64,000 nt of DNA from Methanosphaerula palustris E1-9c (GTDB taxonomy: Archaea; Halobacteriota; Methanomicrobia; Methanomicrobiales; Methanospirillaceae): the NCBI RefSeq assembly GCF_000021965.1, contig NC_011832.1, positions 682,001 through 746,000 of the forward strand. Direction: 5' to 3'. Position numbers and translations under genes: made by a program. Under the pieces are notes generated by a model. It was not told where the DNA came from and did no database searches. It saw only the letters and a list, made by a program, of their open reading frames with translations. Below are positions 44,273 to 60,060 of this stretch, one piece after another; position 1 is the first letter of the stretch; the number at the start of each line of letters is the position of its first letter.

Positions 44273-44857
44273 TTACAGGATTTCTGCCCGATATCTCTCC
44301 ACCGTCTCAAGAAGTTCAGAGACCACCGCCTCGTGACTGGCCGATCGGATGTCCACGACGACCTGACTGGTCATCGGCCATCTCTCAGCGATCGCATCCA
44401 CCAGACTGCGCCTCACCGTCCAGATCATGGGAGGATAGGGCATCGTGACGATACGATCGATTGAGTCCGCCCAGACTGCCCCTCTGAGTTCGAACCGCCC
44501 CACCTCGTCGATGACGAGGAGGTCGGTGGTTTCACGGGGATCGAGGTGGAGCGCCCGGTGTCCGAGAGAGAGCCCGTCGGGTCGAAAATAAAACCGTCCG
44601 AGATGTTCAGACTCAAAAGAGGGGATCACCGAACAGAGTTCCCTGGAGATTCCCGTCCCCAGATCCTGAATCGTGAAACCCGACCGGCGACCATTGCAGA
44701 TATGGCCAGGGGCTGCGATCCCTCTGATCTGCAGACCTTCTGCGGAGAGGACTGCCAGAACCCTCATGAGAAAACTGGTCTTTCCCTCACCCGGGTCGCC
44801 GGTGATGATGAATACCGGCGGTCTCTGGTCGACCGATCCTGGAGATCCGTTCGTCAT
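44273..44857 (-). CDS. THEP1-like nucleoside-triphosphatase
   Basis: P-loop NTPase of 194 residues, resembling the THEP1/NTPase_1 group. Walker A is FIITGDPGEGKTSFL (about 16-30) and Walker B is LLVIDEVGRFELRG (about 112-125). Between them lies GFTIQDLGTGISRELCS. The family hydrolyses nucleoside triphosphates in vitro; its cellular role is unclear. It is the last gene of the import operon and overlaps the upstream ABC ATPase gene by 4 bp, so it is made together with the transporter. It might process or sense the imported cargo or control importer output; both are inference. Confidence 0.82.
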   Translation of the reverse strand: MTNGSPGSVDQRPPVFIITGDPGEGKTSFLMRVLAVLSAEGLQIRGIAAPGHICNGRRSGFTIQDLGTGISRELCSVIPSFESEHLGRFYFRPDGLSLGHRALHLDPRETTDLLVIDEVGRFELRGAVWADSIDRIVTMPYPPMIWTVRRSLVDAIAERWPMTSQVVVDIRSASHEAVVSELLETVERYRAEIL

Positions 44858-45711
44858 GCCCTCACCTCAACCCAGTGACCAGGGTGCACCTCGACCATCT
44901 CGGGCATTCCGCCAGAGGGAGACTCCGGGAGAGATGGGGGAACATCGGCATCTCTGGTCGATGCGGCAACGAGTCGACGAGTGTACCAGTGGCAGGGGTG
45001 ATCGAGGACGTCTGAGGTCGGTCCGATCTCCACGATCCTCCCCTTCACCATGATGGCGACCTGATCGCTCATCGCCCTGATGACGCCGATGTCGTGAGAG
45101 ATGAAGAGGCAGGTCGTATCGCAATCCCGTGCCAGTGCGCGAAAGAGCGTGAGGATCTGGGCCTGAACCGAGACGTCGAGGCTCGAGGTGGGTTCGTCTG
45201 CCACGATGAAATCGGGTTCCAGGGAGAGAATGCGGGCCAGGACCACCCGCTGGTTCTGCCCCCCTGAGAGCTCGTACGGTCTGCGGTTCAAGAGGTCCTC
45301 GTTCAGCCCGACCCTTGCGATCAGTTCTCTCACCCGTCGATCGATACCTGCCCGGTCCCCGCGTTTCATAAGTCTGAGCGGCTCTGCGATACTGTCGTAC
45401 ATGCGTATCCTCGGGTTGAGCGAGGCGTAGGCATCCTGGAAGATCATCTGCATCCTCGGTCTGAACCTGCGAAGTTCTGAACGAGAGAGCCCCGTGATCT
45501 CGACCCCGTCGATGAAGACCTGCCCATCAGTGGGTTCGATCAGGCGGAGAAGGGAACGACCGAGGGTCGTCTTCCCGCATCCGCTCTCTCCGACCAGTCC
45601 GAGGGTCGTTCCCTTCTCAATCTCCAACGAGACCCCGTCGACCGCCCGAACCTCAGTCCGGCGGAGAATTCCTGACGAATAATACGTCCTTAAATTACGA
45701 ACCTCTATCAT
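44854..45711 (-). CDS. Opp/Dpp-type ABC importer ATPase (OppF/DppF-like)
   Basis: Second ATP-binding subunit of the importer (285 aa from MIEVRNLRTYY). Walker A is GLVGESGCGKTTLGRSLL, the Q-loop is in MQMIFQDAYASLNPR, the signature is YELSGGQNQRVVLARIL and Walker B is PDFIVADEPTSSLDV, with switch His in FISHDIGV. The N-terminal SSGILRRTEVRAVDGVSLEI and the C-terminal extension (CHWYTRRLVAA) are OppF hallmarks. The C-terminus lacks the usual four-Cys iron-sulfur motif seen in its partner. The start overlaps the partner gene by 17 bp. Confidence 0.93.
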   Translation of the reverse strand: MIEVRNLRTYYSSGILRRTEVRAVDGVSLEIEKGTTLGLVGESGCGKTTLGRSLLRLIEPTDGQVFIDGVEITGLSRSELRRFRPRMQMIFQDAYASLNPRIRMYDSIAEPLRLMKRGDRAGIDRRVRELIARVGLNEDLLNRRPYELSGGQNQRVVLARILSLEPDFIVADEPTSSLDVSVQAQILTLFRALARDCDTTCLFISHDIGVIRAMSDQVAIMVKGRIVEIGPTSDVLDHPCHWYTRRLVAASTRDADVPPSLPESPSGGMPEMVEVHPGHWVEVRA

Positions 45712-46654
45712 AGTAAACCAGACACCGTGCAAACTGACCTGAGCCGATCTCGATGAGTTCGGGATGTTCTCTCTCACATCGTCTACCCGCGCAGGAACAC
45801 CGGGGGGAGAACCTGCACCCGGTCGGGAGATGGAGAGAGGAGGGAGCTGATCCCGGGATCGGCTGCATACCCCTCTCGGGTAAGGATGCCAGGAGACCGC
45901 GGGTGTACGGATGTGCAGGGGCGGTGAGGACCGCATCGACCGGCCCGAGCTCGACGATCTCTCCGGCGTACATCACCGCGACACGCGAGGCGATGGTCGC
46001 GGCGGCATCAATGTCATGGGTGATGAAGAGGACCGAACGGTCCTGATTGATCTCTCCAAACAGACCGAGAATCTCCCGTTTTGTCACCGGGTCCAGTCCC
46101 CGCGTCGGCTCGTCAGCGATCAGGACGGACGGACTGCAGGCGAGTGCGAGGGCGATGAGCGCACGTTCCTGCATTCCGCCGCTGAGCCGATGCGGATACG
46201 CTCGGGCAGTGCTGGTGGGATCTGAGATCTGTGCGGCACGGAGGAGATGTAACGCCGCCGCATCTGCGTCTGTCCTGTCCAGTGTGCAATGAAGCATGAT
46301 CGCCTCGGCGATCTGGTCGCCGACCCTGAGCACCGGGTTGAGCGATGTTCCTGAATTCTGGAGAACCACGGCGATCTCCTTCCCCCTGATCTTCTCCATC
46401 TCCCTCTCGGAGACGGAGAGAAGGTCTCTGCCGCGGAACAGGATCTCCCCTTCGATCCGGGTGTTCGGCTGGAGAAGACGGGGAATCGCCATGCCAAGCA
46501 CCGTCTTCCCCGATCCCGTCTCACCGAGAAGCGCGAGCGTCTCTCCTGCCCGGATCGTGAGATCGACCGTATCGGATGCCATCACCAGGCCGTCGATGGT
46601 GGGAAAACCGATCTTCAGTCCTCTGATCTGGAGGAGGGGATCGTCGGGGGTCAT
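45695..46654 (-). CDS. Opp/Dpp-type ABC importer ATPase (OppD/DppD-like)
   Basis: First ATP-binding subunit (319 aa from MTPDDPLLQIRGL). Walker A is ALLGETGSGKTVLGMAI, the signature is HRLSGGMQERALIALAL and Walker B is PSVLIADEPTRGLDP, with FITHDIDAAATI. The C-terminal cysteine-rich segment TGCRFSPRCSCAGRRCEREHPEL carries the CxRCxxxxxxC-type [4Fe-4S] or oligopeptide/dipeptide C-terminal motif of OppD/DppD/NikD. It overlaps the upstream permease gene by 4 bp and the next ATPase by 17 bp. Confidence 0.93.
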   Translation of the reverse strand: MTPDDPLLQIRGLKIGFPTIDGLVMASDTVDLTIRAGETLALLGETGSGKTVLGMAIPRLLQPNTRIEGEILFRGRDLLSVSEREMEKIRGKEIAVVLQNSGTSLNPVLRVGDQIAEAIMLHCTLDRTDADAAALHLLRAAQISDPTSTARAYPHRLSGGMQERALIALALACSPSVLIADEPTRGLDPVTKREILGLFGEINQDRSVLFITHDIDAAATIASRVAVMYAGEIVELGPVDAVLTAPAHPYTRGLLASLPERGMQPIPGSAPSSLHLPTGCRFSPRCSCAGRRCEREHPELIEIGSGQFARCLVYYDRGS

Positions 46655-47427
46655 ATTCGCATCACCTGGAGATGTGGATTCATCTCGTCCTCCAGAGCAT
46701 AGGCGAACCATGCAAGGGCGAGGGATATGCCCGTCACAGCCAGGCCCGGCGGGATCAGCCACCACCAGAGACCGAGGGTGATCCCGCCGTTCGTGCTCGC
46801 CCTCTCGATCATCTGCCCCCAGTCCACGACATTCGGATCTGCCATGCCGAGGAAACCCAGTCCGATTCCGACGAGCATGAAATGTTGAGCCGACGTCACG
46901 AACTTCATGCCGACGAGGGGGAGAATGTTCGGGAGGATGTGCCGGACCATGATATATCCGTCGCGGGCACCGAGCGCCTTCGTTCCGATGATGAAATCGG
47001 CTGCGGCAAGGGAGAGGGTCTGGGCCCTGATGATCCGCACACAATTGAAACTGCCAAGAAGACCCATGATCACCGCGGTCAGATAAATCCCTGGACTGAA
47101 GAAGAAGGTGAGGAGGAGCAGGAGTGGGAACGAGGGAATGGTCATGATCACGTCGAGAATCCGCATGATCACTTCGTCGGTCCAGCCCCGGTAATACCCG
47201 GTGACGATGCCGACGGTCGTACCGAGGGCGGTCGAGACCACGGCGCCGAGAAAACCGAGGATCAGCGTCGCTCTCGTACCCCAGATCAGCATACTGAAGA
47301 TATCCTGGGCAAGATCGTTTGTTCCGAGGAGATGTGTGGCGTCCGGATGGACCAGAGGCAGGTCTGAACTTGCTAGGGGATCGAAGGGGGCGATCACTGG
47401 CGCAAAGAGGGCCACCGCACAGTACAC
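46651..47427 (-). CDS. Opp/Dpp-type ABC importer permease (OppC/DppC-like)
   Basis: Membrane subunit (258 aa). The typical HPDATHLLGTNDLAQDIFSMLIWGTRATLILGF block follows a first TM helix, and the EAA loop is GARDGYIMVRHILPNILPLV near residue 150. About five or six helices are seen. The only start in frame is a GTG (47427) that cuts into the first hydrophobic segment. Upstream codons remain open (hydrophobic LSLSLSLGIVLV) without ATG, GTG or TTG, so a non-standard start or a shortened TM1 must be assumed. Confidence 0.9.
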   Translation of the reverse strand: MYCAVALFAPVIAPFDPLASSDLPLVHPDATHLLGTNDLAQDIFSMLIWGTRATLILGFLGAVVSTALGTTVGIVTGYYRGWTDEVIMRILDVIMTIPSFPLLLLLTFFFSPGIYLTAVIMGLLGSFNCVRIIRAQTLSLAAADFIIGTKALGARDGYIMVRHILPNILPLVGMKFVTSAQHFMLVGIGLGFLGMADPNVVDWGQMIERASTNGGITLGLWWWLIPPGLAVTGISLALAWFAYALEDEMNPHLQVMRI

Positions 47428-47461
47428 AAGAACAATGCCGAGGCTGAGGGAGAGGGAGAGG

Positions 47462-48448
47462 TTATGGTTGGAGATCGTCCCCCACCTCCACGCGTGGATC
47501 GATGTACGGATAGATCAGATCGACACAGATGTTGGCAACAATGATGATCAGCGTGTCGATGAGCAGGATCCCCTGGAGCAGGGGGAGGTCGCGAACCTTG
47601 AGGGATTCATAGGTGAGCAGTCCGAGACCCGGCCAGGAGAAGATCGTCTCGATAAAGATGCTCCCGCCGATCATCCCGGCACACTGTAAGGCGACCATCG
47701 TCATCATCGGGAGCAGGGCGTTTCTCAGGGCATGACGCCGAAGTATCTGCTGGTTGTTCAGGCCCTTCGCCCGGGCCGTGGTGATGTAATCCTCCCCGGC
47801 CGTCATCAGTATCGAGTTTCGCATCAGATAGTACGTCCCGGTCACCGAGAAGAGGAAGAGCGTGAGGATCGGCAGAGCGGCGTGAGTCAGCACGTTGAGG
47901 GGATCGATCCCCGTGTTGAGGGCGCTGAGACTCACATACCCTCCGAGCGGAAAGAGCTTGAGGTAAAAGGCGAAGATCAGGAGGATCATGAGAGCGAGCC
48001 AGTATGAGGGGATCGCTCTGAGAAAGATCATCCCGTTCAGGAGGGCGATATCGGCCTTTGAACCACGTCTCCATCCAGAATAAGCTCCGATCGCAATGCC
48101 GGCGATGCTGGAGAGGACTGTCGCCGGTAGCAGGATCACCAGCGTCCAGATCAGTTTCTCATCGATCACATCCAGAACCGGCCTGTCGTAACTGAGAGAA
48201 TATCCCCAGTCTCCCTGAAATACACCAAGAAGATAACTGAAGTACTGGTCGATGAGCGGACGGTCCAGACCGTAGGCGTGGTTGTATGCAGTGACGACCT
48301 CAGGCGGCGCAATCACGTAGAACGCCTTCAGGTACTGGGTGATGAAGTCCCCCGGAATGAGGTGGAGGATGACAAAGGTGATCGTGATGCTGACACCAAA
48401 GGCAAGCCCTGAGTACAGAAGCCTTCGCAGAAGATATGACGCTCTCAT
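47462..48448 (-). CDS. Opp/Dpp-type ABC importer permease (OppB/DppB-like)
   Basis: Membrane subunit of 328 residues. N-terminal RRLLYSGLAFGVSITITFVILHLIPGD is the TM1 block of DppB/NikB/OppB. The periplasmic LDRPLIDQYFSYLLGVFQGDWGYSLSYDRPV is typical. The EAA motif (TTARAKGLNNQQILRRHALRNALLPMM) precedes the last helices. It overlaps nothing, lying 34 bp before the next permease and 101 bp after the binding-protein gene. Confidence 0.93.
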   Translation of the reverse strand: MRASYLLRRLLYSGLAFGVSITITFVILHLIPGDFITQYLKAFYVIAPPEVVTAYNHAYGLDRPLIDQYFSYLLGVFQGDWGYSLSYDRPVLDVIDEKLIWTLVILLPATVLSSIAGIAIGAYSGWRRGSKADIALLNGMIFLRAIPSYWLALMILLIFAFYLKLFPLGGYVSLSALNTGIDPLNVLTHAALPILTLFLFSVTGTYYLMRNSILMTAGEDYITTARAKGLNNQQILRRHALRNALLPMMTMVALQCAGMIGGSIFIETIFSWPGLGLLTYESLKVRDLPLLQGILLIDTLIIIVANICVDLIYPYIDPRVEVGDDLQP

Positions 48449-48549
48449 GGCTGTCGGTTCGACGCAGGTGCTTCTCCTCCAGTTCGGAGATGAACCTGGA
48501 GAAGGGAGAACTGGAAATAGACCATCTCGCCCCCTTCAGGTGTCGCTGT

Positions 48550-50334
48550 CTACCTGTTCACCTCCGTACTCGCAGGCTTGACATGTGAGAAGATGTTGAT
48601 ATCGCCCCCGTCCTTATGTATCAGGGAATCGAAACCGTAGAACCGGTCGGAACGGTAGGCATCGAAGGCGTCCATCGAACAGACCGGTATGCAGGGGATC
48701 TGCTCGACGAGGATCTCCTGAAGCTGGTCTCCTATCGCCTTTCTCTGTGACTCCTCCACGGTATTCTGGAGGGTGTCGATCAGTTCGTTGAAGGATCCGT
48801 TGTCGAAGTGGTAGTAATTCTTGCCAAGCGGACTCGACTGGAAATTATTCAGGCGGGCGATGTCGTCGTGGAAGTAACTCGGCATGCCGTCGATACGGAC
48901 TGCGTCTCCGTCGATCCGTTTGTCATACTGATCGTCATCGGCCTTGAGGTTCTCGACGGTGAGTGTGATGCCGAGCGCTGTCTCCCAGTCCTCCTTGAGC
49001 ACCTGGACGATCTTCTCGTCGACACCGTTGGCCGAGGCTTTGCCGCCGAGCGGGATGGTGATCGTGACCACCTGGCTGTCCGGTCCGTAGAGGATGTTCT
49101 TCCCGTTCTCGGTCTTTAGGGTGAAGCCGGCCTGGGCGAGCAGCGCTTTTGCTGCGGTGAGGTCGTAGCCGTACCTGTCGTTCGTGGCGTTGTTCACCTG
49201 GTCGCCGGCGAGGGCGGGGATCAGAAATGCCGTACTGGTCGCCTCGGTTGCCTGCCGGTCGATCAGCTGACACATCCTGTCCCTGTTCACAGCATGGCTG
49301 AGAGCCTCCCGAAAGAGCGTGTTGTTCGCCGGATAGATGTCGAGGTTGAACGCGACTTCGAAGGACTTACCTCCGGCGGGAATTGTCGTCACTCCTATCC
49401 CGTTCACTCCCTGGAGCGAGTGGGCGGTGGCCGGAGCCAGATCTGATACGAAGTCGACATCCCCGTTCTTCAGGGCAAGGACCCTGGTATCTTCAGAGGA
49501 GTAGAGTTTTCGAACAATCGTGTTGACATACGGTACCGATCCATGATACCCCCGATATGCTTCAAGTTTGTAGGAATCTCCTGAGATGCTCGAATTGTAC
49601 ATGAAAGGACCGGAACCGATGTAATCAGGATCAGATTCCTTATTTGGATTTGAGATGGACGACCAGATATGTTCCGGGAAGATCGCAATGCCCGGTCCGG
49701 TCGCAAGAAGGTCGGGGAACTGCGGCATGCAGATATCCAGGGAATAGACCACGGTCGTGTTGTTGAGAGCCGTCACATTGGTGACATTCGACAGGACGTT
49801 CCTGTTCTTGAGTCCCTTATCGTTGAGATACTGGTATGAGAAGACAGCGTCGTTCGCGGTGACGGGAACGCCGTCCTGCCAGGTTGACCCTGACGGGATA
49901 TGAAACGTCCAGGTTTTTCCATCGGCAGAGTGCTCCCACGAAGACGCCAGCCAGCCGAGATCTTCCTTGTCACGCGCTCTGGTAACGAACCCCTCATAGA
50001 TGAGAGAATCTTCTGGAACCCCTTTTTCATCGATATATGCCCTCGGCAGGAGTTCATTTTCGCTGTCGACCGCTACGACGAGTTGGCCGTACGGGATGTG
50101 CAGGGTGTTGTGAGCCGCGAGGGAGAGATCTGCCTTATCGAGCGTGGCGGGACCGGCCGCAGAGGGTGCGTTCAGATAATCCAGAATTCCTGTCGAGAGT
50201 TCGTCCTCAGAGACAACCCCGTCGCCATTCGTATCGCACGGGATCCCGGCGGAGACTGGCATGCAGCAGATGAGGATCAGAAACAGGATCGAACAGCAGA
50301 CGAAGAACGCACTGGGTCCTCTTCTTTCACTCAT
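48550..50334 (-). CDS. ABC substrate-binding protein (SBP_bac_5) with N-terminal EF-hand
   Basis: Secreted cargo receptor of the importer (594 aa). A signal peptide (residues 1-29) is followed by a Ca2+-loop CDTNGDGVVSEDELSTGILDYL (about 33-54), matching an EF-hand/dockerin half-module. The family-5 fold runs from about 80: SLIYEGFVTRA, TWTFHIPSGSTWQDGVPVTANDAVFSY, IGSGPFMYNS, REALSHAVNRD and the C-terminal INIFSHVKPAS. Cluster C SBPs bind peptides, nickel chelates, sugars or heme, so the cargo cannot be named. No lipobox is seen, so how it is held near the membrane is unclear; its EF-hand may do so. The start overlaps the upstream surface-protein stop by 4 bp. Confidence 0.92.
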   Translation of the reverse strand: MSERRGPSAFFVCCSILFLILICCMPVSAGIPCDTNGDGVVSEDELSTGILDYLNAPSAAGPATLDKADLSLAAHNTLHIPYGQLVVAVDSENELLPRAYIDEKGVPEDSLIYEGFVTRARDKEDLGWLASSWEHSADGKTWTFHIPSGSTWQDGVPVTANDAVFSYQYLNDKGLKNRNVLSNVTNVTALNNTTVVYSLDICMPQFPDLLATGPGIAIFPEHIWSSISNPNKESDPDYIGSGPFMYNSSISGDSYKLEAYRGYHGSVPYVNTIVRKLYSSEDTRVLALKNGDVDFVSDLAPATAHSLQGVNGIGVTTIPAGGKSFEVAFNLDIYPANNTLFREALSHAVNRDRMCQLIDRQATEATSTAFLIPALAGDQVNNATNDRYGYDLTAAKALLAQAGFTLKTENGKNILYGPDSQVVTITIPLGGKASANGVDEKIVQVLKEDWETALGITLTVENLKADDDQYDKRIDGDAVRIDGMPSYFHDDIARLNNFQSSPLGKNYYHFDNGSFNELIDTLQNTVEESQRKAIGDQLQEILVEQIPCIPVCSMDAFDAYRSDRFYGFDSLIHKDGGDINIFSHVKPASTEVNR

Positions 50335-52091
50335 TCGTCCCTCTCCGTCGCTGTCTTCTTATCTCCACGATGTCGCACGACGCCGGCACCGCCGACTGCA
50401 CCCAGACCGGCAAAGGCCGGAAGTAGATCGAATCCGGGTGTTGAGGTCGTTTGTGCCGGTGCCGCCCTTCCTCCTCCGTTCTCTCCTGACGTGGAGCCGA
50501 CTGCGACCTGACTGTCAGGGATCACGCCGTCGGTCATATCGACGGCATTGTTCCAGGTTCCCGTGAAGGTCCAGGAACTGCCCGTCCTGGCCTGAACGTC
50601 ATAGGTGATCGTGCTCGTATTGATCACCGAGAACAGGACTTTCTGCCCGGATACACGGTATCGATCTGTTGGATAGTCTGTCTTGGCGAAGGTGAACCCC
50701 TCAGGGATCGTCTCCACAACGCCGCCGGCCTGAATTCCCCTGATCGAGAGTGTCACGCTCAGGTCTTCGCCTCCTCTGATCGAGGTGGAAGAGAGGGTCC
50801 GTGTCACGCCAGCGTCCACCGGCGTCGTCGGGGCTACAGTCCTGTTGATTGATCTGGTCGTGGTCCCCCCGGTTGTACCATGGGAGGTCTGATTCCCTGC
50901 AGCCCCCGGGATGGAGACGTGGCCGCGGATCACGGCCTCAGCATCCTTGAATGCGCCGTCCTTGACACCATAGTAGAATTCCACCAGATCCCCGTCGTCC
51001 ACCTGGTAGACGCTGATCCCCTCGTTCCCGGAGAAGTCGTTCTTCCAGACTCCGTTCACCCGGTAAGCCCAGGCCAATTTAGGGTCGGTGCTGCCGGAGT
51101 AGTTGAATCCGCCTGCGTCGTCGAGCAGGAAGGTCCCATAGGCGGGGTCGTCCCATTTCTTGTCGGTCACGTCATAGGTGAAGTGTCCGGCCTTCGAGGC
51201 GAGTTCCAGGAACCCCTGAGGGGTCAGGTTCTGGACCTGATGGGTTGCTCCTGAGTTGTAGGCATAACATGGGTAGGTGCCGTCCGTCAATGTCAGATTG
51301 CCGTCGAAGAGGACGACCGGTTCTGTTCCGGAGGTCTGCTGAGGGGCCGGAGTAACGGTGGAGGTCACTGTGGGTGTCGAGGTGGCGGTATCACGTGCTG
51401 AACCAGTTCCGTTGGTCGAGGAAACCGGGACGATCTCAATCTTTGCGATCCATTTGTTCGAGAGCTGCGCTGCATTCGGCAGCGCGTCCTTGCCACCGAA
51501 CCAGCTCCAGTACTTCTCATCGAAGGTCTCCTTCATGTCCTGATTGCCGAAGACATGGAGCCCCCATGGGTTCGTTGAGGTGTCGGCACCGAAGAAGAGC
51601 CGGATCCCGTCCGAGTAGCTGTACCCCTGGCGGGCCGTCCACCATGCGAGGACGATCGGGCCCTGACGGGGCTGGGGGTTGTAGACGTTTTCGTAGGGGA
51701 AGGTCTTGGTGAAGTTGTCAGAGGCAATCGTCCTGACCTCGTCGCCGGGCTGCATCCCGCCGACGAGGTTGCAGAGATCGATGAGTCTGGTTCCCCTGAT
51801 CGTCTCGTTCACCTTGTCGATGCTGGTGTCCTCAGCAGGGTTCCACTTCGCAGGATCGCTATAGTTGGTGATGTTCAGCATCGGTCCCTGAAGGAGGTAG
51901 GGGGTGGCTCCGTCCCCGAAGACGGGGAGGTTACTCTCCATCCAGGAGACGTTCACGGTGGTCTGGTTCGCAACGGTCGTGCCATCGCTCGCGTAGCAGA
52001 TCACCTGTACCTCGGTTGTCTGTGCGGCGGCCACGGGGGCAGCCATGAACATGACGAGGATAAGGAGCAACAGAACATTGGTTGATCTCAT
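50331..52091 (-). CDS. Surface protein 1: shared N-domain, DUF4430-like domain, PGF-type C-terminus
   Basis: First gene of the importer operon (586 aa). It has a signal peptide (MRSTNVLLLLILVMFMAAPVAA). The shared N-terminal domain (about 24-225) contains VNVSWMESNLPVFGDGATPY, LIDLCNLVGGMQPGDEV and TNPWGLHVFGNQDM. A Thr linker leads to a DUF4430/transcobalamin-C-like domain (LFDGNLTLTDGTYPCYAYNS...WAYRVNGVWKNDF; about 265-385). A beta-rich region, and then GFDLLPAFAGLGAVGGAGVV with flanking RHRGDKK, resemble the PGF-CTERM anchor cut by archaeosortase A. It overlaps the binding-protein gene by 4 bp, linking surface protein and importer directly. Confidence 0.85.
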   Translation of the reverse strand: MRSTNVLLLLILVMFMAAPVAAAQTTEVQVICYASDGTTVANQTTVNVSWMESNLPVFGDGATPYLLQGPMLNITNYSDPAKWNPAEDTSIDKVNETIRGTRLIDLCNLVGGMQPGDEVRTIASDNFTKTFPYENVYNPQPRQGPIVLAWWTARQGYSYSDGIRLFFGADTSTNPWGLHVFGNQDMKETFDEKYWSWFGGKDALPNAAQLSNKWIAKIEIVPVSSTNGTGSARDTATSTPTVTSTVTPAPQQTSGTEPVVLFDGNLTLTDGTYPCYAYNSGATHQVQNLTPQGFLELASKAGHFTYDVTDKKWDDPAYGTFLLDDAGGFNYSGSTDPKLAWAYRVNGVWKNDFSGNEGISVYQVDDGDLVEFYYGVKDGAFKDAEAVIRGHVSIPGAAGNQTSHGTTGGTTTRSINRTVAPTTPVDAGVTRTLSSTSIRGGEDLSVTLSIRGIQAGGVVETIPEGFTFAKTDYPTDRYRVSGQKVLFSVINTSTITYDVQARTGSSWTFTGTWNNAVDMTDGVIPDSQVAVGSTSGENGGGRAAPAQTTSTPGFDLLPAFAGLGAVGGAGVVRHRGDKKTATERDE

Positions 52092-52403
52092 AGAAAGTTC
52101 CCAGTCCAGCGCGGTCTGATGGATTCGACCACGGACGTATTCATTAGATTCTCAGATTGGTGGAGGTAAATATGTTCTCATTTTATTTGTTAAATATTAA
52201 CAAAAACGGATTTACTTCTCCCCCGGCCAGGGCGGAGAGATGATATATCAGGATCATGACAGCGACCTCGATTCCTGGGATTCGGTCGTCCCGGAGCGCT
52301 CGAATCCCAAAGTTCTGACGCAGAGCGGTCAGATCCCCAGACGCGCGACGGAGAGAGGAAAGATGAGCCCCCTCTCTCATGACAGGAACATAATAATCGT
52401 GAC
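52092..52403. other. Promoter and intergenic region of the importer operon
   Basis: About 312 bp between the two minus-strand surface genes. It contains the family promoter core (minus-strand ACATATTTAC at 52166-52175) 75 nt before the 52091 start. The rest has short frames of no clear coding quality and no repeat or RNA gene that I can identify. Confidence 0.5.
52166..52175 (-). promoter_or_regulatory. Surface-regulon promoter core, copy 1
   Basis: ACATATTTAC on the minus strand, 75 nt before the ATG of surface protein 1 and thus of the seven-gene importer operon. The same ten bases occur at copies 2-4. The leader after it ends with GGACTGGGAAC before the start codon, like the other leaders. 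Confidence 0.6.
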
Positions 52404-52640
52404 TCAGACCCTGGTGAAGAGCCAGACGACGTCGTTGAAGTCGATCTCCCCGTTCCCATTGTAATCAAAGAGCGAAATGGGCTCATTATCGGCGATCCAG
52501 TCCATCTGGTTGAAATAGAGAACTACATCATTGAAGTCGAGCACCCCGTCGCCGTTGATGTCTTCACACAGCCCATCACCATCGATATCTGTCGGTACCT
52601 TTGAACTGCCGGGCACTGCGAGCGCACGCGGTGCCGGAAG
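52404..52640 (-). repeat. Dockerin inverted repeat, left arm
   Basis: About 230 bp encoding PRALAVPGSSKVPTDIDGDG through the stop of surface protein 2. It matches the right arm at 54358-54586 on the opposite strand with only about a dozen base differences, far closer than the upstream halves of the two genes. This suggests recent copying of the dockerin module or gene conversion. Confidence 0.75.
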
Positions 52641-53300
52641 AATCTCAACCTTCGCGATCCACTTGCAGGAGATCTGTGCAGCCGAAGGCAACGCATCCTT
52701 GCCACCGAACCAGCTCCAGTAATCCTCATCGAAGGCCTCCTTCATGTCCTGGTTGCCGAAGATATGGAGCCCCCATGGGTTCGTCGAGTTGTCGGCACCG
52801 AAGAAGAGCCGGATCCCGTCCGAGTAGCTGTACCCCTGGCGGGCTGTCCACCATGCGAGGATGATCGGGCCCTGACGGGGTTGGGGGGTATAGACGTTTT
52901 TATAGGGGAAGGTCTTGGTGAAGCCATCTGAGGCCCGGATTCTGACCAGATCCCCAGGGTGCATCCCACCGACGAGGTTGCAGAGGTCGATGAGTCTGGT
53001 TCCCCTGATCGTCTCGTTCACCTTGTCGATGTTGGTGTCCTCGGCAATGTTCCACTTTGCAGGGTCGCTATAGTTGGTGATGTTCAGGATCGGTCCCTGT
53101 AAGAGATAGGGTGTGACGCCATCCCCGAAGACGGGGAGGCTATTCTCCATCCAGGAGACGTTCACGGTCTGTGACTCCTCAACTGTCTTGTTGTCCCAGC
53201 CATACCTGATCACGGTGAGGTCGGTCGTCTGGGCGGCCGCCGCAGGGAGGACAAGCATCAGGAGCAGGGCGAGGATCAGCAGCGTATTGGTCGATCTCAT
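52404..53300 (-). CDS. Surface protein 2: shared N-domain with C-terminal dockerin
   Basis: Secreted 298-residue protein. After the signal peptide, residues 24-225 are the shared N-terminal domain (VNVSWMENSLPVFGDGVTPY, LIDLCNLVGGMHPGDLV, DGIRLFFGADNSTNPWGLHI). Residues about 235-298 form a dockerin: two 12-residue Ca2+ loops (DINGDGVLDFNDVV and DYNGNGEIDFNDVV) after an initial DIDGDGLCED. Dockerins bind cohesins in cellulosomes; none is seen in the window. The last 230 bp are almost identical to the end of the divergent gene at 53702-54586. Its own promoter is copy 2. Confidence 0.88.
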   Translation of the reverse strand: MRSTNTLLILALLLMLVLPAAAAQTTDLTVIRYGWDNKTVEESQTVNVSWMENSLPVFGDGVTPYLLQGPILNITNYSDPAKWNIAEDTNIDKVNETIRGTRLIDLCNLVGGMHPGDLVRIRASDGFTKTFPYKNVYTPQPRQGPIILAWWTARQGYSYSDGIRLFFGADNSTNPWGLHIFGNQDMKEAFDEDYWSWFGGKDALPSAAQISCKWIAKVEILPAPRALAVPGSSKVPTDIDGDGLCEDINGDGVLDFNDVVLYFNQMDWIADNEPISLFDYNGNGEIDFNDVVWLFTRV

Positions 53301-53376
53301 GGGTTATCTCCAGTCCGGTGCTGGCATATGATCATTGCAGCGGACGTATACACACAAGATCCTCTGATGGGTTGTA

Positions 53377-53386
53377 GTAAATATGT
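53377..53386 (-). promoter_or_regulatory. Surface-regulon promoter core, copy 2
   Basis: ACATATTTAC on the minus strand, 77 nt before the ATG of surface protein 2 (53300). It is followed by a leader that contains TACGTCCG and CCGGACTGGAGA as in copy 4. Confidence 0.6.
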
Positions 53387-53615
53387 TTTGGTATTCTTTT
53401 CTTAAAAATAAAATCATTACATTGACCTGCACCTCTGGTCGGATCGATAGGGTATCGATGAGCAATCAGCCTCGACGAACCTGCACGTTTGTCAATCGAG
53501 GAAGTAGAAGCATCGGAAACATCCTTGCAGTCATGGTCGGGTATTTTTCCACCTTTTGATCGGATCGGGGGGTTGTAAACTACTTTATGTTATGATTGTG
53601 GGAAAGAACACCACA

Positions 53616-53625
53616 ACATATTTAC
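53616..53625 (+). promoter_or_regulatory. Surface-regulon promoter core, copy 3
   Basis: ACATATTTAC on the plus strand, 77 nt before the ATG of surface protein 3 (53702). The leader has CATCAGAAGATC, TACGTCTG and ACCGGAGA before the start, matching the leaders of copies 1, 2 and 4. Confidence 0.6.
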
Positions 53626-53701
53626 AATTCCCCATCAGAAGATCATCTGGAAATACGTCTGTATCTGTGATTCTGTGACGGTGTCAGACCGGAGATCCTC
53701 T

Positions 53702-54586
53702 ATGAAACCGACCATTGTTCTGCTGTTATTGCTCCTCGTCCTGATCGTGGCCGTTCCTGCAGCTTCCGCGCAGACGACCAACCTCACTGTGATCAGGTAT
53801 GGCTGGGACAACAAGACAGTTGAGGAGTCACAGACCGTGAACGTCTCCTGGATGGAGAACAACCTCCCTGTCTATGGGGACGGCGCCACGCCCTATCTCC
53901 TTCAGGGTCCGACCCTCAACCTGACCAATCTCTGGGATCCTGCCGAGGATACGAACCTCGACAAGATCAACGAGACGTTGAAGGGGACGTCCATCCGTGA
54001 TCTGGTCGACCTCGTCGGCGGGATGCAGCCTGGAGATGAGGTCCAGGTGAGGGCTGTGGACGGATTGAAGAAGCGGCTGAACTACACGAACATCTATAAA
54101 CCGCAGGCGCGGCAGGGGCCGGCCGTCGTCGCCTGGTGGAACGCCCGGAACGGTTATGCATGGCCCGAATCGATGCGTCTCTTCTTCCTCGCCGACAACT
54201 CGACGAATCCCCAAGGGGTTCACGTCTTTGGCAACGAGGATATGCGCCAGTGCCTCGCGGAAAAATACTGGACTTATCAATATGACTGGGGGATCTATTA
54301 TCCGTCATCTGCCAGCCTCTCGGTGAAGTATGTCGCCTATCTCGAGATCTACCCAGGGCCGCGGGCGCTCGCGGTGCCCGGCAGTTCAAAGGTACCGACA
54401 GATATCGACGGTGATGGGCTGTGTGAAGACATCAACGGCGATGGGGTGCTCGACTTCAATGATGTGGTCCTCTATTTCAACCAGATGGACTGGATCGCCG
54501 ATAATGAGCCCGTTTCGCTCTTTGATTACAATGGGAACGGGGAGATCGATTTCAACGACGTCATCTGGCTCTTTAACAGGGTCTGA
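53702..54586 (+). CDS. Surface protein 3: shared N-domain with C-terminal dockerin
   Basis: Secreted 294-residue protein, inverted relative to its paralogues. Signal peptide MKPTIVLLLLLLVLIVAVPAASA. Shared N-terminal domain (VNVSWMENNLPVYGDGATPY, LVDLVGGMQPGDEVQ, PESMRLFFLADNSTNPQGVH). It is shorter in the middle than protein 2 because the loop NYSDPAKWN is missing. The C-terminal dockerin (about 235-294) is almost the same as in protein 2. The start is 53702, not the upstream ATG at 53675, because GGAGATCC precedes it. Confidence 0.88.
   Translation: MKPTIVLLLLLLVLIVAVPAASAQTTNLTVIRYGWDNKTVEESQTVNVSWMENNLPVYGDGATPYLLQGPTLNLTNLWDPAEDTNLDKINETLKGTSIRDLVDLVGGMQPGDEVQVRAVDGLKKRLNYTNIYKPQARQGPAVVAWWNARNGYAWPESMRLFFLADNSTNPQGVHVFGNEDMRQCLAEKYWTYQYDWGIYYPSSASLSVKYVAYLEIYPGPRALAVPGSSKVPTDIDGDGLCEDINGDGVLDFNDVVLYFNQMDWIADNEPVSLFDYNGNGEIDFNDVIWLFNRV
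54358..54586 (+). repeat. Dockerin inverted repeat, right arm
   Basis: The partner of the 52404-52640 arm, ending surface protein 3. The two arms flank about 1.7 kb, so recombination between them would flip the divergent promoter region and the N-terminal parts of both genes, giving new N-domain/dockerin pairings. Confidence 0.75.
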
Positions 54587-54900
54587 AAGACGGGAACCTG
54601 AAGGGAAATGAGTTGATCCCCCATTTTTCTATCCAATGGCGGCAGGGTTGACTTCGATGATGTCGAGAAGAAGATCCACCACCATCTCTTACCGCTTATA
54701 TCCAGAGGGATTGGATGTATACCACCATCGGCCGGCCCTCTCGATCCCATGCTTGCCAGAGGATAACGAATAACTCGATGTTGATCCTTCTCCGGGCCGG
54801 TTCATCCGGGTGACGGGGTCGAGGGAGTGGAACGTTGTTTTTTCACTGGAAATATCTGGTCGGGAGTGATCGTCGCGACCTAAAAAAAGGTGGGTCTGGT
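54587..54900. other. Convergent intergenic region with a dockerin remnant
   Basis: About 314 bp between the ends of surface proteins 3 and 4. At 54635-54664 the plus strand reads NGGRVDFDDV followed by an in-frame helix (EKKIHHHLL). This closely resembles the second Ca2+ loop of a dockerin (DYNGNGEIDFNDV). It lies outside any gene and its first loop is gone, so it is a relic. The rest is not interpretable. Confidence 0.45.
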
Positions 54901-56784
54901 TCATTCTCTGTTCTGTTCATCCTTCTGTTCCTTCTCCCTTCGTTGCCGCAGGTACAGGATCCCGGCCAGTGCCAGGAGCAGGAGGAGAACTATGATGATC
55001 AGCCCTGCAAAGATCAGCAGGATGAAGAGCAGTGCCACCGCGATCAGCAGGAAGATACTCAGGTCTGACGACGAGAGGCGGTCGATGGCCGACTGTATCG
55101 TGGAGAGGAAGTTCTTGGTAGAGGTCTGTCCTCCAGACGAGGATTTTGAGTTCGAACCTCCGGGAAGGATCAGCGGCGAGTATTCGTCCTGACTTCCTGT
55201 GTCGAGAACTGGTGGGGTCGACGTTGTCGTCACTGGAGTGCTGGTATTTACCTGGGTCGGAGTGGGCGTTGCATTTCCAGTCGGTGTATGAGGTGTAGTT
55301 ACAGTTGTGATCGCCGTCGTTGCGGTCGTTGTGTTTGTCCCACCGACGCCGGTATAGTCGTCGCTCGATGAGTCTGAAGATGAATCTCCGGTTGAGACGG
55401 GGGCTCCTCCAGAAGAACTGGCTGTCTGAACTGAAGACCTGCTCGTGGCTGTGATGATCGGTGCGATGGTTCCTGCACTGGATGTCGTCGAGGACTGGAT
55501 ACCGGTGCTGGTGATGTCTGGAGCTGGAACGACGGTCTGCTCGTGGGAGGGTAAGAGCGTATTCATACCTGATAGGGAGATCGAGGGTACTGGACTCGTG
55601 GTTGAGGGGGACGATATGACCGGGGCGAGTGCTGTTGTGGTCTGTGGTATTGTGGATACCGCAGGGGCGGTGCTGGCTGTTACGACCGGGGTGGATCTGG
55701 TAGTCACTCCGGTATCGATGGTTCTGACTGTGGTTATCGACGGGGTGGTCGCCACCGTCGTGGGGGAGACCTGTTCGATCGTCCCCACAGTCGTCGGCAC
55801 CGTCGTTCCGGTGACAGAGACCGTCGGGATGATCGTGAGTGTCGTGGTGGTCGCTGTGGGTGTCTGGGTCTGAGTGACGGATGGGGTTGCAGTGTTTGTC
55901 GACGTTGGTGTGGTGTTTATGGTCGTGACGACCACTGTCGGCTGCTCGGTCTGGGTGTCAGTCGGGGTTGCTGTGGTTGTCGACGTCGGCGTGGTGTTTA
56001 TAGTCGTAACGACCACCGTTGGCAGCTCGGTCTGGGTGTCGGTTGGGGTTGTTGTGGGCGTTAGTGTCGGTGTCGCGGAGGTGGTCGTCTCAGTGGTTGT
56101 GGGCGCCTGCTGAGTCGAGACGATCCGGAGTTCGTTCACATACATGGCCGAGAGCCCGGTCGTGGTCGGGTAGATGTCAAAGAAGTTCCATTCGTTCGAG
56201 GGCATCGAAGCCTTCATGTCGCTGAGGCCGAAGACGTGATAGCCCCAGGGGTTCACGGAGGTGTCGGCGAAGAATACGATCCGCATGCCGTTCGAGTACG
56301 ACGGGACGTACCCTTCGTCGCCCCTGTACCAGGTCAGGACGAGCGGACCCTCCCGAGCTGGGGGAGTATAGATGGTATTGTACGAGAATCGCTTCGAGAA
56401 GCCGTCTGAGGCCTTGACGACAAGCGTATCGTCGGATTGCATTCCCCCCACGAGGTCGCAGATATCGCGGAGATCGGTCCCTTTCAGGGCGCCCATATCC
56501 TTCTCCTCGACGTTCACCGACTCGGTGGGATCCCACACATCGCCGTCGAAGACGGGGCCCTGGAGGTAGTAGTGGGTGACGCCGTCACCGAGCACGGGCA
56601 GGTTTGATTCGAGCCATTGGTAGTCGACGGTCCGTTCGGCGAGGACGGTGCTGCCGTCGGCCGCGGTCTTCACCACATGAACCTCGGTTGTGGCGGCTGA
56701 AACTGCGCTGACCAGCAGGACAAGGCAGATCAGGAGACTGCAGACACGGAAAAGAGAGTGAGTGAAGAGAGTATGGGACTCCAT
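54901..56784 (-). CDS. Surface protein 4: shared N-domain, Thr-rich stalk, C-terminal TM anchor
   Basis: Membrane-anchored surface protein of 627 residues (start MESHTLFTHS at 56784; GGGAGG ribosome site). The signal peptide is followed by the shared N-domain in a diverged form (YQWLESNLPVLGDGVTHYYL, LRDICDLVGGMQSDDTL, VNPWGYHVFGLSDMKA). Then comes a Thr/Ser/Pro stalk of about 350 residues with internal repeats. The end has two long hydrophobic stretches (FLLIAVALLFILLIFAGLII and IVLLLLLALAGILYL) and a charged tail. No promoter core of its own is seen; it starts 10 bp after the stop of protein 5 and is probably co-transcribed with it. Confidence 0.85.
   Translation of the reverse strand: MESHTLFTHSLFRVCSLLICLVLLVSAVSAATTEVHVVKTAADGSTVLAERTVDYQWLESNLPVLGDGVTHYYLQGPVFDGDVWDPTESVNVEEKDMGALKGTDLRDICDLVGGMQSDDTLVVKASDGFSKRFSYNTIYTPPAREGPLVLTWYRGDEGYVPSYSNGMRIVFFADTSVNPWGYHVFGLSDMKASMPSNEWNFFDIYPTTTGLSAMYVNELRIVSTQQAPTTTETTTSATPTLTPTTTPTDTQTELPTVVVTTINTTPTSTTTATPTDTQTEQPTVVVTTINTTPTSTNTATPSVTQTQTPTATTTTLTIIPTVSVTGTTVPTTVGTIEQVSPTTVATTPSITTVRTIDTGVTTRSTPVVTASTAPAVSTIPQTTTALAPVISSPSTTSPVPSISLSGMNTLLPSHEQTVVPAPDITSTGIQSSTTSSAGTIAPIITATSRSSVQTASSSGGAPVSTGDSSSDSSSDDYTGVGGTNTTTATTAITTVTTPHTPTGNATPTPTQVNTSTPVTTTSTPPVLDTGSQDEYSPLILPGGSNSKSSSGGQTSTKNFLSTIQSAIDRLSSSDLSIFLLIAVALLFILLIFAGLIIIVLLLLLALAGILYLRQRREKEQKDEQNRE
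55898..56059 (-). repeat. 81-bp tandem repeats in the stalk
   Basis: Two copies of an 81-bp (27-codon) unit encoding TDTQTE(L/Q)PTVVVTTINT... with a few base changes, period 81 from 55898 to 55979. Such repeats can change stalk length by slippage without breaking the frame. Confidence 0.75.
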
Positions 56785-56794
56785 AACCTCCCCT

Positions 56795-59428
56795 CTATTG
56801 GACCGTGATGTAGTTCGCCAGCTCGACGGTATCTGTCGATCCATCGGTGTAGGTGATCTTCACGAGCGGCGTGTAGGTCCCCTTCGCAGGGTAGAAGAAC
56901 GTCGGGTTGATGTCACGCGAGTTCCAGGTGCCATAGTGATTGACTCTATCAAAGGTCCACCAGGTCGAGCGGATCGTCTTCCCGGCCGCTGGAGTCACGG
57001 TGAATTTGATTGCTTCCCCGTATGATGTCGCCTGGGGGATACCGGAGAACGATGCGCCAGTAACCGGCTCGGTCGGCGTGACTGAGGGCGTGGGTGTGGG
57101 AACTGTTGTCGTCGCTGTCACGGTTGGCGTGGTTGCCGGCACGGTGATAGAGACTGTCTTCACCGAGGTACCGACAGCATTGGTCGCGGTCAGCGTGATT
57201 GTGTAGGTCCCGGGTGCCCAGTAGTAATACCGGAAGTTCCGGTAGGCGGTGCTCGTGCCGTCGCCGAGGTCGTACCTGATCGAGGTGGCATTCGTTGTAT
57301 TATCGATGATCATGATCTCCATCGGGGACGGGGTGGTCAGCGTGAAGTCAGGCACCGGATAATCCCCGATGGTGGGGGGTACTGTCGGTGTCGGCGTCAG
57401 CGTGGGTGACGTGGGTGTGACCGTCGGCTTCTCTGGTGTCAGACCGATGAGGTCGATGGTTGTGATCATCCGGACTGACAGGTAGGATGGTATGGATGGC
57501 CCGACGAGGCGGAGCGGCCATCCCGTCTCGTCGAGCGGCACTCCGTTCAACCGGTCGACGACGATGCAGTTGTTGTTCCGTGCGATGAGGCTCGAGTTCA
57601 GGGACTGGTTAAAGCCATCACTGCCGGTGATCTTCACCTGGTAATTCTGGGCCGCGAGCGTGTCGTTGAAGGTTGCGGGGTCGCCGTCATCGACGAGTCC
57701 GACGAGGCGCCAGAGCGGGATGCCCGACCAGGTGCCCGAGATGTCGGTGTATTCGACCCGGTTTCCGGAGGCTTCGAAGTCGGCCTTGGAGAACGTAGCC
57801 GATTGTGCACCGTTGAGCGTGAGCGTGAAGTTGACGTCGTTCGCGACAAAGACCCGAATCCGGACAACGGCCGTCGCCGCGTCGAGGCTGGCGCCCTTGA
57901 CCCCGTAGTAGAAGACGAGGTTGTCACCGTTTTTGACCTGCTGGACGCTGATCCCCTGGTTTGCCGAGAAATCGTTCATGACGACGCCGTTTTGGGTGTA
58001 GGCCCACGTCAGGTTCTGAGTCTTGTTATAGGTCGAGACTCCATCGAGCAGGACCGTGCCGAGATCGTTCCACTTCTTATCGGTTGCGATGTAGGTGAAC
58101 CCGCCCTTCTCAGCTGTTGCCTCAAGGGCCCCCTGGACGGTCAGGTTTCCGACGTTATGGGTTGTCCCCGAGTTGTAGGCATAGAACGGGAAGGTTCCAT
58201 TCATCAGGGTCACTGACCCGTCGAAGATCGTCGTCGGTTCCCGGATGGAGATGCGTATCCGGATCACGGCCTCTGCGTCCTTGAACGCGCCGCCATTGAC
58301 GCCATAGTAGTATTCGACCAGATCGCCGTCGTTGAGCCGATAGGTGCTGATCCCCTCGCTGCTGGAAAAGTCGTTCTTCCAGACTCCGTTCACCCGGTAT
58401 GCCCAGGCCTTCTTCGCGGCAGAGTTGTCGTAATTGAACCCGCCTGCGTTGTCGAGCATGAAGGTGCCCAGCGTCGACCACTTCTTGTCGGTTGCATCGT
58501 AGGTGAAGTTAGCAGCCTTTGAGGCGAGTTCCAGGGCCCCGTGGGGGGTCAGGTTCTGGACCTGATGGGTCGCTCCCGAGTTGTAGGCATAGCCCGGGAA
58601 GGTGCCGTCCGTCAGCGTCAGGTTGCCGTCGAAGAGGACGACCGGCCCGGAGGTCTGCGTGGCTGTTGGGGTCGGGGTGACGGTCGTCGTGTTTGTCCAG
58701 TTGAGCGTGGCTGTTGGGGTCGGGGTGACGGTCGTCGCGTTTGTCCAGTTGCTTGAAGACGTCGGGACGATCTCGACCTTCGCGATCCACTTGTTCGAGA
58801 GCTGCGCCGCATTCGGCAGGGCGTCAGTACCGCCATACCAGGCCCAGTACTTCTCGTCAAGGGTATTCTTCATGTCCTGGTTACCGTAGACATGAAGCCC
58901 CCACGGGTTCGTCGAGGTGTCGGCACCGAAGAAGAGTCGGATCCCGTCAGAGTAGTCGTATCCCTGGCGGGCCGTCCACCAGGCGAGGACCATCGGACCC
59001 TGCCGGGCCTGGGGGTTGTAGACGTTTTCGTAGGGGAAGGTCTTGGTGAAGCCGTCTGAGGCGATGATCTTGACCTCGTCGCCGGGATGCATCCCGCCGA
59101 CGAGGTTGCAGAGATCAACGAGTTTGGTCCCCTTGATCATCTCATCCACCTTATCGATGTTGGTGTCCTCGGCGGGGTTCCACTTAGCAGGATCGCTATA
59201 GTTGGTGATGTTCAGCATCGGCCCCTGGAGGAGGTAGGGTGTGGCTCCATCCCCGAAGACGGGGAGGTTGCTCTCCATCCAGGAGACGTTCACGGTCTCC
59301 TGGTTTGCGACTGTCGTGCCGTCGCCTGCATAATGGATCACCTGCACATCGGTCGTCTGTGCTGCGGCCACCGGAGCGGCCAGGACCAGAACGAGAACGA
59401 GGAGGAGCAGAGCATAGGTTGATCTCAT
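56795..59428 (-). CDS. Surface protein 5: shared N-domain, two DUF4430-like, SUOX-like and PKD domains
   Basis: The largest paralogue (877 aa). Order: signal peptide; shared N-domain (about 24-225, VNVSWMESNLPVFGDGATPY, LVDLCNLVGGMHPGDEV); a Thr/Pro linker with 16-residue repeats; two DUF4430/transcobalamin-like domains (FDGNLTLTDGTFPGYAYNSG and FDGSVTLMNGTFPFYAYNSG, about 265-500); a domain resembling the sulfite-oxidase molybdopterin fold (YTDISGTWSGIPLWRLVGLV, GVPLDETGWPLRLVGP, about 510-650), without the Cys of real enzymes; then PKD-type domains (YDLGDGTSTAYRNFRYYYWA and FFYPAKGTYTPLVKITYTDG). No membrane anchor is seen, so retention at the surface must be by other means. It starts at 59428; longer N-terminal starts lack a ribosome site. 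Confidence 0.86.
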   Translation of the reverse strand: MRSTYALLLLVLVLVLAAPVAAAQTTDVQVIHYAGDGTTVANQETVNVSWMESNLPVFGDGATPYLLQGPMLNITNYSDPAKWNPAEDTNIDKVDEMIKGTKLVDLCNLVGGMHPGDEVKIIASDGFTKTFPYENVYNPQARQGPMVLAWWTARQGYDYSDGIRLFFGADTSTNPWGLHVYGNQDMKNTLDEKYWAWYGGTDALPNAAQLSNKWIAKVEIVPTSSSNWTNATTVTPTPTATLNWTNTTTVTPTPTATQTSGPVVLFDGNLTLTDGTFPGYAYNSGATHQVQNLTPHGALELASKAANFTYDATDKKWSTLGTFMLDNAGGFNYDNSAAKKAWAYRVNGVWKNDFSSSEGISTYRLNDGDLVEYYYGVNGGAFKDAEAVIRIRISIREPTTIFDGSVTLMNGTFPFYAYNSGTTHNVGNLTVQGALEATAEKGGFTYIATDKKWNDLGTVLLDGVSTYNKTQNLTWAYTQNGVVMNDFSANQGISVQQVKNGDNLVFYYGVKGASLDAATAVVRIRVFVANDVNFTLTLNGAQSATFSKADFEASGNRVEYTDISGTWSGIPLWRLVGLVDDGDPATFNDTLAAQNYQVKITGSDGFNQSLNSSLIARNNNCIVVDRLNGVPLDETGWPLRLVGPSIPSYLSVRMITTIDLIGLTPEKPTVTPTSPTLTPTPTVPPTIGDYPVPDFTLTTPSPMEIMIIDNTTNATSIRYDLGDGTSTAYRNFRYYYWAPGTYTITLTATNAVGTSVKTVSITVPATTPTVTATTTVPTPTPSVTPTEPVTGASFSGIPQATSYGEAIKFTVTPAAGKTIRSTWWTFDRVNHYGTWNSRDINPTFFYPAKGTYTPLVKITYTDGSTDTVELANYITVQ
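58659..58754 (-). repeat. 48-bp tandem repeats in the linker
   Basis: Two copies of a 48-bp (16-codon) unit (NWTN(A/T)TTVTPTPTAT) with period 48 starting at 58659 and 58707. Like the 81-bp repeats it is a length-variable Thr/Pro linker. Confidence 0.7.
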
Positions 59429-59502
59429 AGGAAGTCTCCAGTCCGGCGCAACCATTAGGGTACGGCTGCGGAGGAATACGGAAAAACCTCTGCTCGGTGA
59501 TG

Positions 59503-59512
59503 GTAAATATGT
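59503..59512 (-). promoter_or_regulatory. Surface-regulon promoter core, copy 4
   Basis: ACATATTTAC on the minus strand, 75 nt before the ATG of surface protein 5 (59428). The leader includes GCGCCGGACTGGAGAC and ends TTCCT before ATGAG, close to copies 1-3. Confidence 0.6.
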
Positions 59513-60060
59513 TATCATTTTTTTTCGATCTTTGTTCATCTAAAAAAGTTAACAACACTCCGATTCCAGTCAGAGCGACAAAGAACGCGGCTGTGATATC
59601 GACGTTGATTTCGGGGTCTCCATCGTCCACGGGCAGATCGAACTCAAATATGCAGGATGATGAGTGATCTGAGGCATCCCCGTGCGGTGTGATGGGAGGA
59701 GACCCGTTCCTCCTCTCTTCTGGTGGTGATGGAGGTTCTGATCGCTCTCCGTATCTCTCTAATTCCTCGGCGGTGACGAAATAGGAACAGGGCTGCTGGC
59801 CGGCGTTCTGATCGTTTCCGGCAGGTCGCCGGGAACTGTTTGGCATCAGGTGTATGTGGGGGATTCTCGGGTTGAGTTCGTTGACGAGCAGGACAGGGCC
59901 GCAATCACAGGGATTTCAACGCTCGTTTTGGGTGATCCCGGTCATTATGGAAAAACGGTGCGCGTTTCGTGAATCTTTACAATTCAGCAAGAGAATGTCG
60001 CAGAACCTAGTATAAACAACCTGATTGAAAAACTCAAAAACAGGGATTATGCCCTTCCAA
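59513..60060. other. Intergenic region upstream of surface protein 5
   Basis: About 550 bp up to tRNA-Thr. On the minus strand a frame (about 59530-59846) has codon quality only near 59540-59660, where IFEFDLPVDDGDPEINVDIT leads into the hydrophobic AAFFVALTGIGVLLTFL. This could be the end of a decayed or tiny membrane protein. No start with a ribosome site is found. I leave it unassigned. Confidence 0.35.

Follow-up and report, generated by a model that had tools for sequence, protein, structure and literature searches.

The question raised by this locus of Methanosphaerula palustris E1-9c is what its cluster of secreted proteins captures at the cell surface, and for which importer. The stretch analysed, hereafter the window, comprises 64,000 nucleotides (682001-746000) of a genome of 2,922,917 bp that consists of a single contig and was searched as a whole. 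Between positions 44273 and 59428, the window carries five genes for secreted proteins with a common N-terminal domain (hereafter ND), together with an operon for a family-5 (Opp/Nik-type) ATP-binding cassette (ABC) importer. The first-pass annotation had proposed that the paralogues gather a ligand and hand it to this importer. The capture-and-import idea is partly supported by the present analysis, which strengthens it in outline and redirects the ligand to a pterin or a tungsten/molybdenum (W/Mo) species. We tentatively regard the locus as a surface capture-and-uptake system whose ligand is most likely a pterin, or a W/Mo species such as the metal-pterin cofactor or its breakdown products, and give this reading slightly less than an even chance.

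A genome-wide profile search found exactly five copies of ND, all at this locus (E values of 2e-95 to 3e-119). The cluster is therefore beyond chance. As had been annotated, the proteins are secreted paralogues in which an ND of about 198 residues is followed by differing C-terminal modules. Identity to the ND of protein A is 48-88% across the five proteins, which are arranged as follows.

56795-59428, minus strand: protein E; signal peptide, ND at 58763-59356, two DUF4430 domains, a sulfite-oxidase (SUOX) domain PF00174 at about 57449-57784 and a PKD domain at about 57140-57322
54901-56784, minus strand: protein D; ND at 56116-56691 and, judged from the sequence itself, a stalk rich in Thr/Pro and a membrane anchor at the C-terminus
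53702-54586, plus strand: protein C; ND at 53774-54355 and a dockerin-like tail; best start ATG 53702
52404-53300, minus strand: protein B; ND at 52635-53228 and a dockerin-like tail
50331-52091, minus strand: protein A; ND at 51426-52019, a DUF4430-like region, a C-module and a C-terminal hydrophobic segment

The modules annotated earlier were recovered in E (DUF4430, SUOX, PKD) and D (stalk, anchor); the dockerin-like tails of B and C fall marginally below the Pfam cut-off. DUF4430 is above threshold in E and below it in A. Protein E has a second SUOX-type domain besides its ND (PF00174, E 3e-6). The best start of D, 56784, is 10 nt past the stop of E, which makes E and D one unit. The 'VETIP' C-module of protein A was considered as a cohesin and rejected, having no Pfam match while the cohesin matches of the genome are located elsewhere; the same module is common to a partner protein of Opp operons that have no ND. 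A cohesin domain over the cut-off (34 bits, genome positions 2725550-2725933, outside the window) is a candidate to pair with the dockerin-like tails of B and C. Judging from established families, the stalks, dockerin-like tails and membrane anchors would display these proteins outward.

ND matched no Pfam family. Its AlphaFold model, computed with 64 diverse homologues as input, reached a pLDDT of 96.5 and a pTM of 0.91. The best structural matches in the PDB were to PruR (7RKB, with neopterin, E 3.8e-5; 7KOM, TM by target 0.72), followed by the molybdenum cofactor (Moco) domain of yeast nitrate reductase and the oxidoreductases 1XDQ and 1XDY. Both structure and profile matches place ND within the SUOX-type fold of the PF00174 sulfite-oxidase family. 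The computation thus shows ND, as modelled, to be a divergent sulfite-oxidase/PruR-fold domain. The first-pass annotation had placed a SUOX-like fold only among the C-terminal modules and missed that of ND itself. This predicted fold speaks against a peptide or sugar ligand.

PruR, a SUOX-fold protein of the periplasm that lacks the Mo-ligating cysteine, binds reduced pterins, and its pterin binding is associated with Trp160 and Tyr104 in the A. tumefaciens numbering (PMC13259868). In the alignment of 64 ND sequences, Trp126 is invariant, and Tyr109 and Tyr113 are nearly so. The same alignment has no invariant or near-invariant cysteine; Cys83 is present in 55 of the 64 and is outside the expected ligand segment, as set by alignment with a SUOX-fold lipoprotein (see below) rather than by structure. 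With no conserved Mo cysteine apparent, the idea that ND is a molybdoenzyme was rejected. It is plausible that ND acts as a binder in the manner of PruR.

The partner with which ND usually occurs was identified from its distribution. ND is present, mostly in multiple copies, in 93 of the 232 genomes of the host's order (26 of 40 genera). A sample of 393 genomes from the whole phylum had it in 47, of which 10 fall outside this order. Named ND loci were also obtained from Methanophagales, Methanosarcinales/ANME-2c and, among bacteria, Pelotomaculum, Desulfotomaculaceae, Syntrophomonadaceae and Dehalococcoidia; many of these loci are metagenome bins, so that their host names ('Clostridiaceae' for L051, for example) may reflect faulty binning. 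ND proteins carry PEGA, PKD, DUF3344, beta-helix and dockerin modules, which are typical of surface display.

In relatives, the common gene order is a long ND protein, a further ND protein, a metallophosphoesterase, a membrane-anchored ND protein of about 280 residues, a SUOX-fold lipoprotein of about 190 residues, WtpA, a permease and an ATPase, although individual loci may miss some genes. Of the 51 named loci, 26 contain WtpA-cluster genes and 25 contain metallophosphoesterase-cluster genes; the WtpA cluster includes some TupA-type proteins, and many loci end at contig ends. Twenty-six ND-bearing genomes were searched in full. In all 25 apart from the window genome (14 other genera), the distance from ND to WtpA is 772-916 bp, while random placement would give such proximity in about 0.8% per genome if phylogeny is ignored. 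Chance linkage of ND to importers is unlikely, because the gap of 0.77-0.92 kb recurs in 25 of 25 and because another importer type appears to have joined two separate ND clades; shared ancestry inflates the former count but not the latter point.

The first-pass annotation had named ND genes distributed without any importer association as evidence against its proposal; in each of these 25 genomes, ND genes were found next to an importer gene. That the secreted paralogues serve an importer is supported to this extent; the usual partner, however, is Wtp and not Opp. The suggestion that ND might always neighbour Opp-type importers failed: family-5 binding proteins occur in 7 of the 25 genomes and never within 30 kb of ND.

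The two ND-linked WtpAs tested scored 343-345 bits on TIGR03730, above the cut-off of 242.75, and the 25 genomes likewise have a WtpA by this score. ND-linked WtpAs are encoded in frames of 327-400 codons, once 516. Of 12 sampled genomes without ND, seven have a WtpA over the cut-off, in each case in a frame of 633-755 codons. These long frames resemble the sole WtpA of the window genome, a TupA-WtpA fusion of 637 residues that is unlinked to ND and located outside the window. The lipoprotein encoded between ND and WtpA matches PF00174 and a sulfite-oxidase profile; its model matches PruR in the PDB (E 1.7e-7), and the ND profile matches its profile with 97.3% probability (E 2e-11). Therefore the gene between ND and WtpA shares the ND fold.

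How, then, did an Opp-type importer come to stand beside ND? This linkage is a minority arrangement, found in at least five genomes including the window genome. In L101, L102, L103 and L107/L053, ND immediately precedes a related family-5 binding protein (about 50-57% identical), and these Opp-linked NDs form a separate clade (100/100) in the ND tree, the bootstrap of which is not fully settled. The same tree unites A, B and E (98/100) and places them with the long ND of related Methanoregulaceae; C joins the 297-residue ND of these relatives (100/98), and D is nearest to their 531-residue ND at a fork without resolution. In these relatives the ND genes precede those for an ND protein of about 286 residues, the SUOX lipoprotein and WtpA; some (L112, L113, L108) also have permease and ATPase genes there. 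The window locus has no ND protein of about 286 residues, SUOX lipoprotein, WtpA or Wtp permease and ATPase; a family-5 importer is found there instead. Apart from matches to one flanking gene, no flanking synteny shared with the nearest relatives was found. The closest relatives of the window binding protein (L099, L100, L090; 69% identical, by pairwise comparison and not a formal tree) lack ND, and the protein encoded before each of them resembles the C-terminal module of A. On this computation the five window NDs descend from a Wtp-linked locus, and the most economical interpretation has Opp joining ND loci at least twice, apparently in independent events.

Two related Opp operons carry additional genes. 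In L106 (9553-11467; G088), genes for a ParA/MinD-type P-loop ATPase and an O-methyltransferase-like protein lie between the binding-protein and permease genes, an insert that is possibly metal-related. In L104 (13496-15193), a radical SAM protein fused to a PF01497 periplasmic-binding-protein-like domain is encoded downstream of an Opp operon without ND and its NTPase.

Bacteria may have a third importer type. In L082 (615-6266) and L083 (708-5291), loci of Desulfotomaculaceae and Pelotomaculum, ND is near a PF09819 protein, tandem ABC ATPases and an EcfT-like protein; the PF09819 protein, fused to a SUOX domain, and the EcfT-like protein were both tested in L082. TupA-like binding proteins are also encoded in L082, and a DUF364 protein, putatively for heavy-metal chelation, is encoded in L083. 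These loci suggest that an energy-coupling factor (ECF) importer may serve the same ND heads. Beside the ND of L083, a surface protein (15014-18346) combines SLH repeats with a SUOX domain and PF07550, a Shr-like domain that interacts with hemoglobin.

The minus-strand operon of the window, annotated at 52091-44273 with short gaps and overlaps, was reproduced gene by gene on re-examination. Behind the gene for protein A it encodes the following.

48550-50334, minus strand: SBP_bac_5 family-5 substrate-binding protein with an EF-hand/dockerin-like N-terminus (Pfam E 3e-61)
47462-48448, minus strand: Opp/Nik-type permease B, 101 bp after the SBP_bac_5 gene
46651-47427, minus strand: Opp/Nik-type permease C, 34 bp after permease B
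45695-46654, minus strand: ATPase D, OppD-type with an oligo_HPY domain, overlapping permease C by 4 bp
44854-45711, minus strand: ATPase F, OppF/DppF-type; start most likely 45711, giving a 17-bp overlap with ATPase D
44273-44857, minus strand: NTPase_1, a THEP1-type P-loop NTPase (E 7e-19), overlapping ATPase F by 4 bp

The gene for protein A (52091-50331) overlaps the SBP_bac_5 gene (50334-48550) by 4 bp, and a genome-wide profile search found no other SBP_bac_5 copy in the genome.

The importer operon and the ND genes also share an upstream sequence. A 25-bp promoter-like element, AACATATTTAC-N5-CC-N-A-N-C-N-GA, has four perfect matches in 2.9 Mb, all preceding ND genes, and the next best matches in the genome have three mismatches.

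59489-59513, minus strand: promoter-like element, 60 nt before E
53615-53639, plus strand: promoter-like element, 62 nt before C
53363-53387, minus strand: promoter-like element, 62 nt before B
52152-52176, minus strand: promoter-like element, 60 nt before A and the importer operon

Protein D has no element of its own; its gene is downstream of E in one operon. Since the paralogue C is old and is encoded on the opposite strand, the sharing of the element is not due to recent duplication alone. It is natural to infer that the E-D unit, C, B and the A-importer-NTPase operon are co-regulated. In related Methanoregulaceae, L110 and L037 have the 11-bp core of the element, with one mismatch, upstream of their ND gene. 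The element may be lineage-specific, because the core was not found, at one mismatch or fewer, in L108, L109, L111, L112, L113 or L036.

In the reading that we prefer, ND heads displayed outside the cell on varied stalks and anchors would bind the ligand and hand it to the binding protein for uptake by the importer. In the widespread form, the importer is an ABC transporter of the Wtp type, accompanied in most cases by a lipoprotein of PruR/SUOX fold, and the secreted metallophosphoesterase often present at such loci could strip phosphates from a cofactor. In the window genome, the Wtp module is gone from the locus and a family-5 importer, of a class that can transport larger organic ligands or metal chelates, would have taken its place, now under the promoter-like element common to the ND paralogues. 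A more specific proposal is a dedicated prokaryotic salvage of W/Mo-pterin cofactor or free reduced pterins at the archaeal surface, in which PruR-fold heads bind, the secreted phosphoesterase trims, and exchangeable importers (Wtp, Opp and possibly ECF) take up the metal, the pterin or both. We regard this version as doubtful.

Several facts weigh against a pterin or W/Mo ligand. A search of the ND profile against all PDB sequences gave no match to PruR at the sequence level. The pocket of PruR is likely too small for Moco (PMC13259868). The window locus contains neither the metallophosphoesterase nor the SUOX lipoprotein, and nickel and peptide binders (NikA/DppA-type) are the closest characterised kin of the window binding protein. 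The window genome retains its separate TupA-WtpA, so that plain tungstate uptake is independent of this locus. WtpA binds tungstate via one Asp and one Glu carboxylate, given as Asp160 and Glu218 (PMC4139814, PMC10221389). The ND-linked WtpAs keep the Asp column, but the Glu of RSxE is replaced by Ser, and most gain a nearby acidic residue. These columns were assigned by alignment, and the spacing of AF_0094 fits this pair only under its own numbering, which we take to be Asp153/Glu218. Because the tungstate-coordinating Glu is replaced, the ligand of the ND-linked WtpAs may differ from plain tungstate, the case for which is weakened by the loss.

Among the alternatives, the importer may carry a peptide, a nickel or other metal chelate, heme or a sugar captured by the NDs, the SUOX/PruR fold being an inherited scaffold. 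The kinship to NikA/DppA-type proteins and the existence of related Opp operons without ND are in line with this, and the ATPase and methyltransferase of the G088 operon could fit metal handling. The window importer, however, scores far under every equivalog cut-off, NikA and OppA included (the binding protein reaches 105 bits against 393 for NikA), and peptides, heme or sugars would leave unexplained why ND heads occur with a tungstate-type importer in 25 of 25 other genomes. We consider this alternative unlikely.

Still less probable is that the NDs bind a tungstate/molybdate oxyanion or small chelate and concentrate it for the importer, with the pterin-like fold coincidental. The linkage to Wtp and TupA-type binding proteins and to the DUF364 protein would be expected on this account, but the tungstate ligand is lost in the ND-linked WtpAs, the family-5 importer is not known as an oxyanion carrier, and the structural likeness of ND is to pterin binders. 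The least probable account, that the NDs are PruR-like pterin sensors or adhesion proteins of methanogen-syntroph consortia and the importer a mere neighbour, draws on the role of PruR as a signalling pterin receptor (PMC13259868), on the surface-display modules of ND proteins and on a family distribution that takes in methanogens, ANME-type archaea and a small number of bacteria, several of which belong to syntrophic groups, but is at odds with the constant linkage of about 0.8 kb to an importer binding protein, the two apparent joinings to Opp importers and the finding of no GGDEF or kinase partner among the window neighbours scanned. The ligand order that we infer is pterin or W/Mo-pterin, then nickel or another chelate or peptide, and then W/Mo oxyanion.

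Methanogens, ANME archaea and syntrophs depend on W/Mo-pterin enzymes such as formylmethanofuran and formate dehydrogenases. In the literature searched, which did not cover subscription papers, we found neither an uptake system for W/Mo-pterin cofactors nor a description of the ND-importer system. According to a review of PruR, no pterin efflux system has been identified (PMC13259868). An unnamed domain family tied to a tungstate-type importer and structurally nearest to pterin binders makes extracellular capture of pterin or metal directly testable in a cultured methanogen, and the apparent exchange of importers, more than once, around a single capture domain offers a natural experiment on what the ligand is.

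Other features of the window are given here as separate observations. A CbiA/CobB-like amidotransferase, possibly CfbB of the F430 pathway, is encoded near the ND locus at 61041-62414, with a tRNA-Thr (60061-60132) between the two. At 38881-39549, a Peripla_BP_2 (PF01497) frame without about the first 40 profile positions and with no importer partners nearby is possibly a truncated remnant. Adjacent paralogous Thr/Pro-rich membrane-anchored proteins are encoded at 16038-17429 and 17978-19561.

The locus may finally be compared with known systems. Like NikABCDE and OppABCDF, the window operon has a full complement of importer genes, for an SBP_bac_5 protein, two BPD_transp_1 permeases and two ABC ATPases; unlike them, its binding protein has a dockerin-like N-terminus and its leading gene encodes an ND protein. 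Dockerins have been described on NikA/OppA-type ABC binding proteins of ANME archaea (PMC9012536). These resemble the present case in the surface docking of ABC binding proteins via dockerin modules, while the dockerin section of that paper mentions neither ND, its fold nor the tungstate importer. The importer adjoining ND in relatives passes the WtpA model and in this respect resembles the tungstate/molybdate importer WtpABC, from which it differs in the Ser that replaces the tungstate-coordinating Glu; the window locus itself is without Wtp genes. As for PruR (PDB 7RKB, 7KOM, 7KOS, 7KP2), ND likewise is a secreted SUOX-type fold with no conserved Mo-ligating cysteine. Because the defining features tested fail (no adjacent DcpA/DTB-type regulator, for example, was found among the window neighbours scanned), we class ND neither with PruR nor with the molybdoenzymes. 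It exceeds PruR in length by about 50 residues and forms part of multidomain surface proteins; its linkage is to importers, whereas that of PruR is to DcpA-type regulators.

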